The notes under the pieces are model-generated. The model was not told the DNA's origin, made no database searches, and saw only the letters and a list, made by a program, of their open reading frames with translations. The position numbers were made by a program, and so were the translations under genes. DNA of 64,000 nt from a virus, in the IMG/VR virus record IMGVR_UViG_3300050821_010764, positions 1 to 64,000 of that record, one strand, 5' to 3'. Positions 3,776 through 22,502 of the stretch are shown in pieces. Numbering within the stretch: position 1 is the first letter of the stretch; every line of letters starts with the position of its first letter.

Positions 3776-4564
3776 ATGTCTAATCTTAAACTTAAAGACA
3801 GGATCGCTTCCTATCAGGAGGCGTCTGACCATAAACTGCTCAATCGAATTCCCCTGATAATTTCTATCAATGGGCGAAGCTTTGCTAGGGCTACCGAGCT
3901 ATTAGACAAACCGTATTGTCCTAAATTCGCTGAGTGCATTCTATCCACTACTTTGAGAATGTGCAACGAGATTGAAGGTGCCCTCTTTGCTTATCAGCAC
4001 AACGATGAAATTGTTGTTGTAGCTCGTAATGATCAAAGTATTGAGACGGCACCATGGTACAATAACAACCTGCAAAAAATTTGCTCTGTTACTTCCTCCA
4101 TTGCTACCCTACACTTCAATAACTGTGCCAGTACCATTGATTTGAGTATGCAGGGTGAACCCGTTTTTACCTCTCAAGTTTTTGTAGTGCCTAATATTGG
4201 AGAAGCCATTAATGTAATGGTACACAAACAACAATCTAATTTTCACACCTCTATCCAATGTGCAACACTTTATGAGCTATTGAAAAAATATGACAAAAAC
4301 ACCATTAAAGAAATGCTAAATGGTTTGAGTGTAGACGAAAAGATCGAGTTGCTTAAACAAGAGTGTAGTATTGATTTCAATAGCTATCCCGTTCATTTTA
4401 GAAAGGGCGCGGCTTGCTATAAGGTTCCTAAGATAGTTAGCGATGGAACCATGAAGAATAAATGGCTTGTTAATGGCGAGTTGCCAATTTTTACTCAAGA
4501 CCAGTCCTTCTTGTCTAATATTTTCAAGAATGGAGCAGATATTTTTCGAAAGGAAAACCTATGA
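3776..4564 (+). CDS. Thg1-like 3'-5' nucleotidyltransferase (tRNA-His guanylyltransferase superfamily)
   Basis: A 262-residue member of the Thg1/Thg1-like superfamily, enzymes that add nucleotides to the 5' end of tRNAs in the reverse (3'-5') direction. Family landmarks in order: the ISINGRSFARA strand-turn-helix (DGRxFHRF in cellular Thg1), FAYQHNDE (second metal Asp77-Glu78), and FNSYPVHFRKGAACYK (YNxxPxxxRKG). The first metal-binding Asp is Asn32 here, so either the metal site differs or catalysis is impaired. The gene lies 0.6 kb before a tRNA-Thr array whose members all carry acceptor-stem mismatches, which makes a tRNA repair or editing role attractive but unproven. The start ATG is preceded by a TTATATT box rather than a Shine-Dalgarno. 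Confidence 0.8.
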   Translation: MSNLKLKDRIASYQEASDHKLLNRIPLIISINGRSFARATELLDKPYCPKFAECILSTTLRMCNEIEGALFAYQHNDEIVVVARNDQSIETAPWYNNNLQKICSVTSSIATLHFNNCASTIDLSMQGEPVFTSQVFVVPNIGEAINVMVHKQQSNFHTSIQCATLYELLKKYDKNTIKEMLNGLSVDEKIELLKQECSIDFNSYPVHFRKGAACYKVPKIVSDGTMKNKWLVNGELPIFTQDQSFLSNIFKNGADIFRKENL

Positions 4565-5085: not shown

Positions 5086-5113
5086 TTGACATCTGGTAAT
5101 AAGTGGATATAAT
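5086..5113 (+). promoter_or_regulatory. Consensus sigma70 promoter for the tRNA/tmRNA cluster
   Basis: A perfect -35 (TTGACA, 5086-5091) and a perfect -10 (TATAAT, 5108-5113) separated by 16 bases. The expected start at about 5120 lies only a few bases before tRNA-Thr(UGU). This is the best host-type promoter seen in the window, so the cluster can be transcribed by unmodified host RNA polymerase, probably early. Confidence 0.85.
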
Positions 5114-5125
5114 AAGACTGAGTAA

Positions 5126-5199
5126 GCTAGCTTAGTATAACGGTATTATATCGCCCTTGTAACGCGATGAACCGGGTTCGACTCCCGGCGCTAGCTCCA
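5126..5199 (+). tRNA. tRNA-Thr (anticodon UGU)
   Basis: A cloverleaf with a 3' CCA encoded. The acceptor pairs GCTAGC with GCTAGC (pair 7-66 is a T/C mismatch), the T-arm is CCGGG-TTCGACT-CCCGG, and the anticodon loop CTTGTAA gives UGU (reads ACA). The top pair of the anticodon stem (31-39) is a C/C mismatch. Discriminator is U. Confidence 0.9.
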
Positions 5200-5205
5200 A
5201 AACAC

Positions 5206-5279
5206 GCTGATGTAGTATATCGGTATTATTCATCTTTGGTAAAGATGAGAATCGAGTTCAACTCTCGACTTCAGCTCCA
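5206..5279 (+). tRNA. tRNA-Thr (anticodon GGU)
   Basis: A cloverleaf with CCA encoded, 6 bases after the first tRNA. The anticodon stem CATCT/AGATG is fully paired; the loop TTGGTAA gives GGU (reads ACC and ACU). The acceptor GCTGATG/CTTCAGC has a T6-T67 mismatch. Discriminator is U. Confidence 0.9.
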
Positions 5280-5284
5280 AGTAA

Positions 5285-5359
5285 GCCCATTTAGTTCAGT
5301 GGTAGAACACCTCACTAGTAACGAGGATGTCATCGGTTCGATTCCGATATAGGGCTCCA
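5285..5359 (+). tRNA. tRNA-Thr (anticodon AGU)
   Basis: A cloverleaf with CCA encoded. D-arm GTTC/GAAC and T-arm ATCGG-TTCGATT-CCGAT are intact. The loop CTAGTAA gives AGU (reads ACU; more codons if A34 is made inosine). Acceptor mismatches sit at 5-68 (A/A) and 6-67 (T/T), and an A/C at 31-39. Discriminator is U. Confidence 0.85.
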
Positions 5360-5437
5360 CATAACCATAGATTCAACTACAACGCTTGAGGGTGGCGCGA
5401 GTGGTGGGATGAACAAAAAACAAGTAACCTTCATTAA

Positions 5438-5511
5438 GCTGATGTCATATAGTGGCATTATGTCTCCTTCGTAACGAGATCACGTGAGTTCGATTCTCAC
5501 CTTCAGCTCCA
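5438..5511 (+). tRNA. tRNA-Thr (anticodon CGU)
   Basis: A cloverleaf with CCA encoded. The loop TTCGTAA gives CGU (reads ACG); T-arm GTGAG-TTCGATT-CTCAC is perfect. It has a T6-T67 acceptor mismatch and a C/C at 31-39; the D-stem is weak (ATAT/TTAT). It completes the set of four isoacceptors. The 78-base spacer before it shows no gene. Confidence 0.85.
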
Positions 5512-5545
5512 ATCCTAATATCGATTCTCGATGTTGGGATTTTTT
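5511..5545 (+). terminator. Intrinsic terminator/attenuator between tRNA-Thr and tmRNA
   Basis: Arms 5511-5524 and 5528-5541 pair over 14 positions (two G-U pairs), with loop TTC, followed by a T-run to 5545. It sits directly after tRNA-Thr(CGU), sharing the final A of its CCA, and two bases before the tmRNA. It may set the ratio of tRNA to tmRNA, or act as a processing signal. Confidence 0.75.
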
Positions 5546-5547
5546 AT

Positions 5548-5911
5548 GGGGATGACCCGGCTTCGACTGGGTAAATAATTGAGGAAATGATACAAGCCGA
5601 GGGTGTTTAGACTGCTTCCTCGTAAATCCGCAGTTAGACGAATAAATGCAAACGATAACGCATTTGCTCCATTGGCTCTAGCAGCCTGATGGATGTCCTT
5701 TGATGAGATATTTTTGGTAATCAAAAGGATATAAACCACTAAAGATAGGGTTAACAATGGCTACGGTTGTTAACCTGAAACAAACAGTAGATAGCCGGCA
5801 AGAGCGAGTATCAAGCAGAGTTGTCAATGACTCTAATATTGACTAAGCTTGTGAATGAGTTTTTTCCGTGACGTATCTAGGACTCGGGTTCGACTCCCGA
5901 CATCTCCACCA
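5548..5911 (+). ncRNA. ssrA: tmRNA (SsrA)
   Basis: A complete one-piece tmRNA of 364 nt. The tRNA-Ala-like ends pair (GGGGATG with CATCTCC, one G-U), the T-arm reads CGGG-TTCGACT-CCCG, and ACCA is encoded at the 3' end. The start region GACCCGGCTTCGACTGGGT and the GCCGAGGGTG segment match the family. The tag frame at 5648-5689 begins with the usual resume codon GCA and encodes ANDNAFAPLALAA, then TGA; the LALAA end is a typical degradation signal for ClpXP-type proteases. tmRNA frees stalled ribosomes and marks the truncated peptide. It needs SmpB, which is not visible here and may come from the host or elsewhere in the phage. A reverse-strand frame over this region is a shadow. Confidence 0.96.
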
Positions 5912-9544: not shown

Positions 9545-9664
9545 GATCCGGTAGCTAAATAAGAATGAAAGCGGTCTACGAACGTGGTAGATGCAGCAAG
9601 TAGTTTATGACCAAGCACCTGTTTGATAAACAGGAGAATGTGTGGTGCGAATCCCACCCGGATC
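9545..9664 (+). ncRNA. tRNA-Ile-like RNA (anticodon GAU) with about 44-nt insertion
   Basis: The ends pair perfectly as an acceptor stem (GATCCGG 9545-9551 with CCGGATC 9658-9664). A perfect anticodon arm is present (CCTGT 9618-9622, loop TTGATAA giving GAU, ACAGG 9630-9634), and a T-arm-like hairpin has 4 bp (GTGG 9642-9645, CCAC 9654-9657) with TGCGAAT in the loop. A weak D-arm (GCT/AGC, 9554-9572) lacks GG in its loop. Between D-arm and anticodon arm lie about 44 extra bases, including a TCTAC/GTAGA hairpin. No CCA is encoded. It could be an intron-bearing tRNA, a decayed tRNA or a tRNA mimic. Confidence 0.55.
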
Positions 9665-10012: not shown

Positions 10013-10086
10013 GCCTTCATAGCTCAAAGGAAGAGCAACCGTCTCTAAAACGGGGTATGCGATGTCGGGATTCGCTGAAGGCGCCA
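10013..10086 (+). tRNA. tRNA with amber anticodon CUA (suppressor)
   Basis: A cloverleaf with CCA encoded: acceptor GCCTTCA/TGAAGGC perfect, D-arm GCTC/GAGC perfect, anticodon stem CCGT/ACGG with loop CTCTAAA. With T33 and A37-A38 the anticodon is CUA, which reads UAG. The T-loop is odd (GTCGGGA instead of TTCGANN). Discriminator is G. The amino acid it carries cannot be told. Confidence 0.8.
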
Positions 10087-10094
10087 GGTAGAAT

Positions 10095-10388
10095 ATGTCA
10101 GGCATTTGGGTCTCAAAAATTGTTTCATCTTCGTATGGAGATATAGAAGTTTCTGTACGTTTAGACACCGCCATTGAGCCGGGCGACATGCTTGATCGTT
10201 TAGAGAAAGAGTGGGACGTCCTTGATAAAAAGATGGATAAAGTCTTGCAAAAATTAGAACGTCTTAACGACAAAACGCCACAAAAAATTGTAGATTCGGT
10301 TATGAAAGAGCTGATGGAAATTGATAATTTGCAGAAACATAATCGTAAAGAATGGAATCGCTGGTTTGAAGTTTGGGAGCCAAAATGA
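10095..10388 (+). CDS. Hypothetical coiled-coil protein
   Basis: A 97-residue protein; residues about 30-85 are heptad-like ([20 protein letters not shown] and onward), suggesting a coiled coil. It overlaps nadA by ATGA, so the two are translated together. The function is unknown. Confidence 0.75.
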
Positions 10389-11395
10389 CAAAGTTACCGA
10401 TGTTAACGCCTAAAGAGTTTGCTGATGCTAAACGTAAAGCGATAGCCGATGGCATCTATGATGGTCTTTCTATTTTAGACATCGAAGACAGAATTCAATA
10501 TCTAAAGAAGGAACGTAATGCCGTTATCTTGGCACACTATTATCAGGATTCAGAAATTCAAGATGTTGCTGACTTCATCGGAGATTCCTTACAACTCTCC
10601 CAAGAAGCTGCTAAGACTCAAGCGGATGTCATCTGTTTTGCTGGCGTTCACTTTATGGCTGAAACCGCCAAGATTCTTAATCCAACCAAAATCGTGGTGC
10701 TTCCCGATTTGGAAGCCGGATGTTCACTTGCCGATGGATGTCCCGCCGATAAATTCGCTGCCTGGAAAAGCCTCCATCCCAATTCTATCGTGGTCAGCTA
10801 CATCAACTGTTCCGCCGAAGTCAAAGCACTCTCTGACTATATTTGCACCTCTTCCAATGCCGAGAAGATTGTTCGTGCTGCCGCTGCTACCGGTAAAGAA
10901 GTTCTTTTTGCGCCAGATAGAAATCTTGGTAACTACATCATGAAGAAGACTGGCATTCCCATGAAGATGTGGCAAGGAGCTTGTATTGTCCATGAAACCT
11001 TCAGTGAAAGAAAATTGGTTGGTCTTAAAGTGCGTCATCCGAATGCTTTGGTTCTTGCACATCCAGAATGTGAAGAGCCGATTCTCAAGATGGCGGACTA
11101 CATTGGCTCAACGACTGGGATTTTGAAGTATGCAACTACTTCAGAACACAAAGAGTTTATTGTAGTCACGGAGTCCGGTATCTTGCATCAGATGCAGAAA
11201 GCGGCTCCAGACAAGACATTCATCCCGGCTCCACCAGAAGCAAACTGTGCGTGTAATGAATGTCCCTTCATGAAAAAGAATACTTTGGAGAAGGTATATC
11301 TTGCATTGAGAGATTTGACTCCCCAGATTAACATGTCAGAGGATTTGATGAATCGAGCCAGAGTTTCTATCGATAGAATGATGGCATTATCTTGA
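10385..11395 (+). CDS. nadA: Quinolinate synthase NadA
   Basis: A 336-residue quinolinate synthase, the [4Fe-4S] enzyme that condenses iminoaspartate with dihydroxyacetone phosphate in de novo NAD synthesis. Family marks: [35 protein letters not shown] (Cys113), WQGACIVHE (Cys200), and a CACNECPFM cluster motif (Cys288, 290, 293). Length and order match full-size bacterial NadA, so it looks active. Start ATG 10385 has GGGAG in front. No NadB or NadC is in the window, so it would boost a host pathway. The phage's own IscU at 2.6 kb could load its cluster. NAD supply matters to phages because several defence systems drain NAD; that link is inference. Confidence 0.97.
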
Positions 11396-11404
11396 ATAAT
11401 AAGT

Positions 11405-11481
11405 GGTTCATTAGCTCAGTCTGGTAGAGCAGGGAATTCTAAACTCCCGGGTCATGGGTTCAAATCCCATATGAACCCCCA
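11405..11481 (+). tRNA. tRNA with amber anticodon CUA (second suppressor)
   Basis: A cloverleaf with CCA encoded: GGTTCAT/ATGAACC acceptor perfect, D-arm GCTC/GAGC, T-arm ATGGG-TTCAAAT-CCCAT. Anticodon stem GGGA/TCCC has an A/C at 31-39; loop TTCTAAA gives CUA (reads UAG). A one-base shift would give UCU (Arg) but loses stem pairs and breaks D-arm spacing, so CUA is preferred. Discriminator is C, unlike the first CUA tRNA. Confidence 0.75.
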
Positions 11482-12425: not shown

Positions 12426-12761
12426 ATGATGACTGAAGATCCTCGTAAAACTGGTTTAAAGAATGGTTTGCGTCAGCTAACCGCGGAACAATTACAGAGA
12501 GTGATTGATTATCCTGGTGAGATGGTGCTGGACTCCTACAACTATGCGGACGGCAATTTCTGCGCCCTAGCGGTCGCTTTAAAAATGGATGAGACCATGC
12601 CTGACCCGAGCCACGACAAAGTGTTCGCGGAACTTACTAAATTGGGCTACAAAGTTTACAATACTCGCGGCATTGCGGGCGAGTTTTACACCACCAACCG
12701 CAAGGAAGACCTGCTGGAAGCAGCAAGAGAGGTATTACAAGAAAAGACACATGCAAAATAA
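12426..12761 (+). CDS. Hypothetical protein, GC-richer than neighbours
   Basis: A 111-residue protein starting at ATG 12426 or 12429. It contains ALAVALKMDE and a GYKVYNTRGIAGEFYTTNR segment. The middle (about 12480-12700) is visibly richer in GC codons (GCG, GCC, CGC) than adjacent genes, which may hint at transfer from another phage or host. It overlaps infC by 11 bases. Confidence 0.7.
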   Translation: MMTEDPRKTGLKNGLRQLTAEQLQRVIDYPGEMVLDSYNYADGNFCALAVALKMDETMPDPSHDKVFAELTKLGYKVYNTRGIAGEFYTTNRKEDLLEAAREVLQEKTHAK

Positions 12762-13287
12762 CAACCAACAACGAGAACAACGCATTCGCATCAATCATCA
12801 AATTCGTATCCCACAAATCAGAGTTGTCGCTTCCAATGGCGATAACTTAGGGGTCATGGCTACTAGAGACGCCCTCAAACTGGCAACAGACGAGGCTTTA
12901 GACCTAGTAGAAATTAATCCAAGAGCTGTGCCTCCAGTCTGTAAAATTATGGACTATGGCAAATTCAAATACGAAGAGAAGAAGAAGGCGCAAGCTGCTA
13001 AGAAGAATCAGCAGGTGCAAGAACTCAAAGAACTTACTTTCCGCCCTAACACGGATGAAGGTGACCTGGCTCATAAGACTGAACAAGCCAAAGAGTTCTT
13101 GACAGAAGGTAATCGTGTTAAGTTTACCATTCGTTTCAGAGGTCGTGAGATTACTCATCCTCAAGTTGGTAGTGATAAATTGAAATGGATTTTGCAACAG
13201 TTAGATGGACTCATTGTAGCTGCGCCACCTATTTCTTTGGAAGGCAAGTTTATGACAATGATCGTAGCACCTAATAAGAAGGCATAA
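12751..13287 (+). CDS. infC: Translation initiation factor IF-3
   Basis: A 178-residue IF-3 with both halves. The N-domain has INHQIRIPQIRVVASNGDNLG, the linker is the usual Lys-rich KYEEKKKAQAAKKNQQ, and the C-domain carries KELTFRPNTDEGDLAHK and the RFRGREITHPQ signature. IF-3 binds the 30S subunit, keeps subunits apart and checks the start codon. Cellular infC normally starts with a rare AUU for autoregulation; this copy uses ATG at 12751, so it would escape that control. The frame extends further upstream (to 12589) but that part overlaps the previous gene and is unlike IF-3. A phage IF-3 could bias initiation toward phage messages, including SD-less ones. Confidence 0.95.
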   Translation: MQNNNQQREQRIRINHQIRIPQIRVVASNGDNLGVMATRDALKLATDEALDLVEINPRAVPPVCKIMDYGKFKYEEKKKAQAAKKNQQVQELKELTFRPNTDEGDLAHKTEQAKEFLTEGNRVKFTIRFRGREITHPQVGSDKLKWILQQLDGLIVAAPPISLEGKFMTMIVAPNKKA

Positions 13288-21318: not shown

Positions 21319-21909
21319 TTGAATACTATTGTAACTGAAACGACTGAACATGGCGAAATGCCAATTGACGTCTATCACAAGCTAGCCAATGACCGTATTT
21401 TGTTCATCACAGAGTACATTACTGATCGTGTTGCTGCCGACATCACCGCTACTCTATTATTGAAGGACAGTGAAGATTCTGAAAAGAAGATAACTTTGTT
21501 TATCAATTCACAGGGCGGCGACATTCGTAATGCTTTTATGATTGTTGATATGATGAACATGATTGATGCTCCTATCGAAACAGTCTGCATTGGCGCTGCC
21601 ATGGATGAAGCCGCTCTCATTTTGACTTCTGGTGCTCCTGGCATGAGATTTGCTACCAAAAATTCTCGTATTGCTGCTAGCCAGCTGGTACATGAGTGGA
21701 TTACCCGCGCCGACCTAACAGATGCTAAAAGGTATTTGGAGTTGGCATTAGTTGATAACAAACGCATGATGGAGATTTTTGCTAAAACAACCGGTAAAAG
21801 TTTAAAGCAAGTCATGGAAGATTTTGAGCGACGAGTGTTTATGGGTGCTGCTCATGCAGCCAAGTATGGTTTAATTGACAAAGTAGTTAGTTTTAGTAAG
21901 GTGCAATAA
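21319..21909 (+). CDS. ClpP-like protein lacking all catalytic residues (ClpR-like)
   Basis: A 196-residue ClpP-fold protein with TTG start. The fold signature is clear (LFINSQGGDIRNAFMIVDMM, APIETVCIG, KYGLIDKVV), but each triad position is changed: Ser to Asp96 (GAAMDEAA), His to Ser121 (NSRIAASQ), and Asp to Arg (FERRVF). It thus cannot hydrolyse peptides and resembles ClpR subunits of cyanobacteria and plastids, which mix with active ClpP. The next gene, overlapping by one base, is an active-type ClpP, so a mixed barrel is likely. The pair is last in an operon with HU-like and DksA-like genes. Confidence 0.9.
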   Translation: MNTIVTETTEHGEMPIDVYHKLANDRILFITEYITDRVAADITATLLLKDSEDSEKKITLFINSQGGDIRNAFMIVDMMNMIDAPIETVCIGAAMDEAALILTSGAPGMRFATKNSRIAASQLVHEWITRADLTDAKRYLELALVDNKRMMEIFAKTTGKSLKQVMEDFERRVFMGAAHAAKYGLIDKVVSFSKVQ

Positions 21910-22502
21910 TGGGAAAAGGATGCGATCACAATCACGACCATATTCGTGCTCCCCTTCTTGCAGGATATGCTGACACCTATGTTAAACTGGCTAAACATCG
22001 TATTTTGGTGGTAGCCGAAGATGTTTCTGACACCATGGCAGCGGAATTGTCCGCTATGTTGCTCTATTTTGACAACGAAGATCATGAAGCAACCATTGAA
22101 ATGCACATTCATTCTGATGGTGGGGCTGTAACGGGATTGCTAAACATTTATGATGTTATGCAAATGGTTCAAGCTCCCATCAAAACTGTTTGTGTAGGTA
22201 AGTGTTTTTCAGCAGCGGCTGTATTATTGGCAGCAGGTAATAAAGGTGAAAGGTATGCTCAGAAGAATTCTAGCATTATGATTCACGGTATTCAGTGCGG
22301 TTTTCCCATTCCAGGTCACGACATGACCTCTTCCAAAAACTATTATGAGTTTTTGGTGGAAAACAACGACAATATTATGAAGATTTTGGCACATCATACG
22401 GGTCACTCCCTCGAAAAAGTGAAGAATGACTGCAAGCAAGATGTTTACATGGATGCCAAGCAAGCGTTAGAATATGGACTAATTGACCATATCATCGGAT
22501 AA
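21909..22502 (+). CDS. clpP: ClpP-like serine protease, triad intact
   Basis: A 197-residue ClpP. The triad is complete: Ser101 (GKCFSAAA), His126 (SSIMIHG) and Asp178 (CKQDVYM), and the HSDGGAVTGLLNIYDVM substrate strand and EYGLIDHIIG end fit. The N-terminus has an unusual His/Cys-rich tip (CDHNHDH) that may bind metal. ClpP forms 14-subunit barrels fed by AAA unfoldases (ClpX, ClpA), none of which is seen here, so host unfoldases or another phage protein would be needed. It may degrade tmRNA-tagged products or host proteins, or act in head maturation. A terminator follows. Confidence 0.93.
   Translation: MGKGCDHNHDHIRAPLLAGYADTYVKLAKHRILVVAEDVSDTMAAELSAMLLYFDNEDHEATIEMHIHSDGGAVTGLLNIYDVMQMVQAPIKTVCVGKCFSAAAVLLAAGNKGERYAQKNSSIMIHGIQCGFPIPGHDMTSSKNYYEFLVENNDNIMKILAHHTGHSLEKVKNDCKQDVYMDAKQALEYGLIDHIIG

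Follow-up and report, generated by a model that had tools for sequence, protein, structure and literature searches.

The window analysed here is a 64,000-nucleotide stretch of viral DNA, positions 1 to 64,000 of a 144.8-kb linear IMG/VR virus contig (IMGVR_UViG_3300050821_010764). It encodes a one-piece tmRNA downstream of an array of tRNA-Thr genes, among genes for translation proteins, and it also carries two adjoining Clp protease genes. The features, each on the + strand, are as follows.

3776-4564, +, Thg1-like protein of the 3'-5' tRNA polymerase/repair family; opens the conserved block; Pfam Thg1, 7.8e-18
5086-5113, +, predicted sigma-70 promoter, TTGACA-16-TATAAT (12/12), 40 nt before the tRNA-Thr array
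5126-5199, +, tRNA-Thr (TGT); ARAGORN
5206-5279, +, tRNA-Thr (GGT); ARAGORN
5285-5359, +, tRNA-Thr (AGT); ARAGORN
5438-5511, +, tRNA-Thr (CGT); ARAGORN
5511-5541, +, hairpin resembling a terminator, separating tRNA-Thr (CGT) from the tmRNA; sequence
5548-5911, +, one-piece tmRNA gene (ssrA), CCA encoded; ARAGORN, full-length RF00023 match, covariation across 16 tmRNAs
5548-5554, +, acceptor stem 5' strand GGGGATG, with G3 at 5550; pairs with 5901-5907 (7 bp)
5598-5635, +, pseudoknot 1: CGAGG (5598-5602) with CCTCG (5618-5622), GACTGC (5610-5615) with GCAGTT (5630-5635); compensatory changes
5648-5689, +, resume codon GCA (5648-5650), tag frame ANDNAFAPLALAA and TGA stop; sequence, ARAGORN, kept as protein in relatives
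5884-5900, +, T-arm TCGGG-TTCGACT-CCCGA with canonical T-loop; sequence
5901-5911, +, acceptor stem 3' strand CATCTCC (U70 at 5905), A73 and CCA; sequence, RF00023
9221-9532, +, PTH2-type peptidyl-tRNA hydrolase; Pfam PTH2, 29 bits (cut-off 23), weak match to solved PTH2
12589-13287, +, translation initiation factor IF3; Pfam IF3_N and IF3_C
21319-21909, +, ClpR-like inactive Clp subunit; Clp_protease, 2.6e-46; triad lost (Ser to Asp, His to Ser, Asp to Arg)
21909-22502, +, ClpP with the Ser/His/Asp triad kept; Clp_protease, 8.6e-49; triad aligned

The tmRNA is identified by ARAGORN at 5548-5911 (+), with the tag ANDNAFAPLALAA*, and by the Rfam covariance model RF00023, which gives 150.3 bits (gathering score 47; E 4e-59) over all 374 model positions (1-374). 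For comparison, 23 Myxococcota tmRNAs reach 107-180 bits under this model, a range that includes the phage score. A complete phage tmRNA had been predicted at this position, with paired acceptor ends, an encoded CCA, a GCA resume codon and a 13-residue tag ending in LALAA before a TGA stop, and each of these elements can be read in the sequence; the tag reading frame at 5648-5689 is GCA AAC GAT AAC GCA TTT GCT CCA TTG GCT CTA GCA GCC TGA. The alternative of a decayed copy fails on the covariance-model score, and the pairs of pseudoknot 1 are intact. The alanine identity pair G3:U70 (5550:5905) and A73 are both present, the elbow is canonical, with GG in the D-loop and UUCGA in the T-loop (CGGCUUCGAC / UUCGACU), and the RNA folds better than its shuffles (z = −2.84).

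When the window tmRNA was aligned with those of relatives (16 tmRNAs in all), RNAalifold detected compensatory change in 44 of 70 pairs. Scoring the named structure, including the pseudoknot 1 helix, gave 95.3% of cells paired and 37 of 50 pairs changed on both sides. The covariation values were matched by none of 500 shuffles, and pairing falls to 40-54% when partners are slid by 1-3 columns. All five pairs of the first helix of pseudoknot 1 are compensated and the second helix is 95.8% paired; one stem of the pseudoknot 2 region (helices 7-8) covaries. The G3:U70 pair is invariant (16/16) and was also read directly in five later sequences.

The tag is likewise retained as protein. Aligned relatives encode ANDNAFAPLALAA, ANDNAFAPMALAA, ANDNAFAPVAQAA, ANDNAFVPMAQAA, ANDNSIAPLALAA, ANDNAAPMALAA, ANDNAFESFALAA, ANDNAFAMAA, ANDNAFAEAA, ANDFAFAEAA, ADESAFAMAA and ADEFAFAEAA, and members found later encode ANDNAYAMAA, ADDMVFAEAA, ANDNATAPYALAA, ANDNNAFVQMPLAA and ANDNSIAPLAQVA. 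The variable columns fall at third codon positions in 9 of 15 cases for the 13-residue tags and in 8 of 15 for the 10-residue tags. Position -3 varies (L, M, E, Q and others), and the terminal AA is found in 20 of 21 distinct tmRNAs, the exception being ANDNSIAPLAQVA. Helices maintained by compensation and a tag kept as protein are not those of a decayed copy, and thus 5548-5911 is confirmed as a full-length one-piece tmRNA gene.

Relatives were collected by an IMG/VR scan with the Thg1-like protein (3776-4564), which returned 15, and by the tag pattern, which added two; a profile of the Thg1-like protein then returned further relatives, seven of whose records were searched. Whole-record searches found a full-length RF00023 tmRNA above the cut-off in 16 of the first 17 relatives and in all seven later ones. 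The gene is therefore present in 24 of 25 clade records including this one (records of up to 481 kb, which may be fragments), and is lacking only in a distant clade member, G017; with near-copies counted once, the distinct tmRNAs number 21. ARAGORN, as run, reported a tmRNA in only six of the 14 Thg1-selected relatives (L016-L029) where Rfam found one, and at these settings it overlooks about half of the clade's tmRNA genes. Megablast of the record against isolated phages gave no match. A census with a tmRNA pattern gave 41 matches, mostly small contigs with gammaproteobacterial-type tags. In one relative (L090 1484-1793, in G004 and also G014) a second, 3'-truncated tmRNA copy lies approximately 170 nt upstream of the intact one; it has the tag ANDNAYAMAA and a canonical D-loop but no T-arm, and its sequence is that of a tandem duplication with one copy apparently decaying. 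A profile search for SmpB (PF01668), validated on control genomes, found none in the 25 records (this 144.8-kb record and 24 relatives), so that the SmpB of the host would be needed. The tmRNA is accordingly close to a core gene throughout this large-phage clade rather than an occasional pick-up, and it would in every case rely on host SmpB.

The gene is tied to a block for translation upkeep, with the recurring order Thg1-like gene, tRNA-Thr array, tmRNA, PTH2-type hydrolase, IF3 and tRNA-Arg(CCT). The Thg1-like protein, whose nearest solved structure is the bacterial Thg1-like 4kgk, is encoded in all 15 relatives compared, the PTH2-type hydrolase in 12 and IF3 in 11; the true start of IF3 is probably downstream of 12589, as the domain begins at residue 68. 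Thg1-like proteins repair tRNA 5' ends. The record also encodes trigger factor, DnaJ, peptide deformylase, a CCA-adding-type enzyme and a second such nucleotidyltransferase. Besides the promoter at 5086-5113, the 144.8-kb record has just one 12/12 sigma-70 site, located on the other strand. A site scoring 11/12 or better is found in 12 of 14 relatives in the interval from the Thg1-like gene to the tmRNA, mostly some 40-60 nt ahead of the first tRNA-Thr. The array (5126-5511) provides all four tRNA-Thr anticodons and is mostly retained among clade members; its tRNA-Thr(AGT) would be an uncommon one in bacteria. The hairpin at 5511-5541 resembles a terminator, and co-transcription of the tRNAs and tmRNA may therefore be partial; by eye, a similar T-tailed hairpin-like stretch precedes the tmRNA in G007, G011 and G013.

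There are also two CTA-anticodon tRNAs in the record: one at 10013-10083 (Rfam, 41 bits), which is missed by ARAGORN and has an enlarged, odd T-loop (TGTCGGGAT), and one at 11405-11481. The conserved CTA-anticodon tRNA raised the question of whether TAG is recoded genome-wide and ribosomes stall as a result; for this record the idea is rejected: coding density under the standard code is 95.5%, and only 5 of 160 reading frames end in TAG, several of them spurious. A weak tRNA-like match at 9600-9658 (29.3 bits, T-loop TGCGAAT, no clear acceptor stem) is probably a decayed tRNA. A 2H phosphoesterase akin to LigT and the anti-CBASS protein Acb1 is encoded at L007 12336-12950 (G000 112336-112950, − strand; Pfam Acb1, 2e-10), possibly a counter-defence or RNA repair gene.

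A metabolic gene gives a lead to the host. NadA quinolinate synthase (10373-11395) is 80% identical to Myxococcota NadA, and roughly the 30 best matches are from Myxococcota or unplaced deltaproteobacterial MAGs; as NadA can move between lineages, Myxococcota can be taken only as a host lead. A search of 379 Myxococcota genomes for prophages found no clade member and no close Thg1 homolog. Sampled Myxococcota tmRNAs mostly encode the tag ANDNAIALAA, which has the ANDNA start in common with the phage tag, a start also found in some alphaproteobacterial-type tags. The window tmRNA is about 43-49% identical to sampled Myxococcota tmRNAs, and in a tmRNA tree the phage sequences form one group far from Myxococcota (44% identity vs 66% within the phages); it is therefore unlikely that the gene was acquired recently from a host of the sampled kind.

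Taken together, these data make us fairly confident that the phage encodes a functional one-piece tmRNA, most likely for supplementary ribosome rescue during infection via the SmpB, EF-Tu and AlaRS of the host. The intact conserved RNA, the promoter sequence and the lack of a phage SmpB are the steps that the genomes themselves back. From these we infer the expression time, charging, SmpB use, tagging and proteolysis of tagged products. Host RNA polymerase would transcribe the tRNA-Thr array and tmRNA early, and host RNase P, AlaRS, EF-Tu and SmpB would mature, charge and load the RNA, which would release ribosomes stalled on broken or truncated mRNA, with the tagged fragments destroyed by host proteases. 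Rescue capacity would be raised alongside PTH2 (peptidyl-tRNA release), the Thg1-like protein (tRNA end repair) and IF3. Phage infection, as general phage biology implies, breaks mRNA and so creates non-stop complexes. Hosts own a tmRNA, and therefore the benefit of a phage copy is not self-evident; the plating of a lambda-P22 hybrid (lambda-immP22) drops approximately 10,000-fold when its host has no tmRNA or no SmpB, and the missing rescue is the main cause (PMC2862035). Ribosome rescue with SmpB was also the original prediction, and it stands as the natural reading of an intact tmRNA under selection, with the amendment that the partner must be the host's, the phage having no smpB. The routing of host or defence products to proteolysis, which the prediction also raised, is at this stage speculative.

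Alternatively, the tag rather than rescue could be what is selected, directing products to a chosen protease, such as phage ClpP/ClpR, or away from the one preferred by the host. The degenerate pattern ANDNAFAP-x-A-x-AA* had no match in one genome per species across 84,980 species, position -3 varies within the clade while most sampled Myxococcota tags end in ...LAA, and the record has both ClpP and ClpR-like genes. However, the window tag ends in an ordinary LALAA, the clade almost always retains the AA end, as for a normal degron, and the published dependence of phages on tmRNA is mainly a matter of rescue (PMC2862035). Moreover, a search of the 144.8-kb record for an AAA_2 (ClpX/ClpA-type) unfoldase found none, so that phage ClpP could degrade tagged products only with an unfoldase from the host. 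We consider such a tag switch unlikely.

A decoy role is considerably less probable: the RNA would not work itself but compete with host tmRNA/SmpB or titrate it, as in mycobacteriophage DS6A, whose tmRNA is TLD-only. A TLD-only phage tmRNA is able to inhibit host tmRNA (PMC4131195), and a phage without SmpB would suit this role, but here selection extends to the entire mRNA-like domain, the resume region and the tag; the mRNA-like domain is absent from the DS6A type, whereas the window has a full tag and pseudoknot 1. There is hardly any chance that the gene is a functionless relic of host ssrA acquired by integration or imprecise excision, and for most of the clade this is already refuted. 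The ssrA gene is a frequent integration site from which phages acquire fragments (discussed in PMC9004378), but this gene is complete, occurs in 24 of 25 records inside a conserved translation block, shows long internal divergence with compensatory change, and groups with other phage tmRNAs apart from those of sampled Myxococcota (44% vs 66% identity). Finally, a permuted two-piece tmRNA (RF04321/RF01849 type), suggested by an RF04321 match at 5454-5689 that just passes its threshold (50.2 vs 47 bits), can be dismissed as a cross-hit joining the tRNA-Thr(CGT) 3' half to the tmRNA 5' half, since the acceptor strand of that tRNA pairs with its own 5' end and not with GGGGATG and the one-piece match reaches 150.3 bits.

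In 8 of the 21 distinct clade tmRNAs, the window's not among them, the elbow formed by the D-loop and T-loop is remodelled, with both sides changed together. These eight have A18, in a D-loop UAGAUUCGAC or UAGUUUCGAC that replaces the UGG-type loop, and all eight carry G55, in a T-loop GGCAGUA, GGCAGUG, GGCGGUA or UGCAAU; all 13 tmRNAs with G18 carry U55 (Fisher p 5e-6, uncorrected for relatedness). When viral contigs were retrieved with only the A18 pattern, 14 of 14 had G55 as well; several are clade members and some are permuted genes of other viruses. The variants are not confined to tmRNA. A cloverleaf search blind to the T-loop found 14 of 182 clade tRNAs without U55-C56; of these, 13 combine G18-U55 or A18-G55 with Watson-Crick pairing at 19-56, A19-U56 and U19-A56 among the pairs (permutation mean 2.4, maximum 8 of 5,000). 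The 14 are concentrated in tRNA-Thr, the genes next to the tmRNA (10/35 vs 4/147 for others, p 1e-5). Compensated tRNA variants occur in L017/L027, L016, L020, L021, L022, L025, L029, L014, L240 and L241, many of them missed by ARAGORN. The variants are thus unique neither to tmRNA nor to the clade, as a few also occur in unrelated viral contigs and the alphaproteobacterial permuted tmRNA is of the same A18/G55 type. The eight clade tmRNAs share the elbow type of the RF01849 consensus, a T-loop GGC(A/G)GUR or UGCAAU with a D-loop UAG, but they follow RF00023 in the order of their parts, each gene being in one piece and not permuted. A U-to-G elbow change has been described for Caulobacter tmRNA (PMC1168896). 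There is no sign of a Myxococcota source, all 21 tmRNAs there being canonical.

On the Thg1 tree the elbow label needs seven changes, at least two of them on strongly supported branches, and G008 (canonical) and G011 (A18) are sisters. One reading, which we put forward as speculative and rather improbable, is that the elbow of the tmRNA and of its tRNA-Thr array is rebuilt under selection: 18-55 (G-U to A-G), 19-56 (G-C to A-U or U-A) and 54-58 (U-A to G-G) would change as a set, time and again, because the usual elbow is read by some host factor, and the rescue RNA would thereby escape it. The reader could be a defence nuclease, a modification enzyme, or a recognition rule of SmpB or RNase P. 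The canonical tmRNA of the window would then be the unswitched state, its tRNA at 10013-10083 already being odd in the T-loop. Slow neutral compensation in long-resident genes or domain exchange with alphaproteobacterial-type permuted tmRNAs may be at work instead, and either would yield the same pattern. The compensated variants are natural experiments on the elbow needs of SmpB, EF-Tu, RNase P and modification enzymes.

In its anatomy the gene is like the standard bacterial one-piece tmRNA (ssrA, RF00023), with a tRNA-like domain bearing G3:U70, pseudoknot 1, a GCA resume codon, a tag ending in ...LAA and an encoded CCA; it differs in being encoded by a phage without SmpB and in a tag pattern absent among 84,980 species. 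Phage tmRNAs are known from mycobacteriophages Bxz1 and Wildcat and Bacillus phage G (PMC4131195), from huge phages, some of which also have SmpB (PMC7162821), and from Melnitz, in a survey that found them in 402 of 18,146 phage genomes, about 2.3% (PMC9004378). In the open-access literature we did not find described a variant elbow on one-piece phage tmRNAs, its repeated switching, or the parallel in phage tRNA-Thr. Like the known ones, the present gene is an entire tmRNA carried by a lytic or large phage, and Bacillus phage G also has a Thg1-like gene, as in the window. Unlike in the huge phages of PMC7162821, here the tmRNA is nearly fixed in a clade and never accompanied by SmpB. A phage tmRNA as such is therefore already known, and the points of interest are its near-fixation without SmpB and the elbow switching in relatives.
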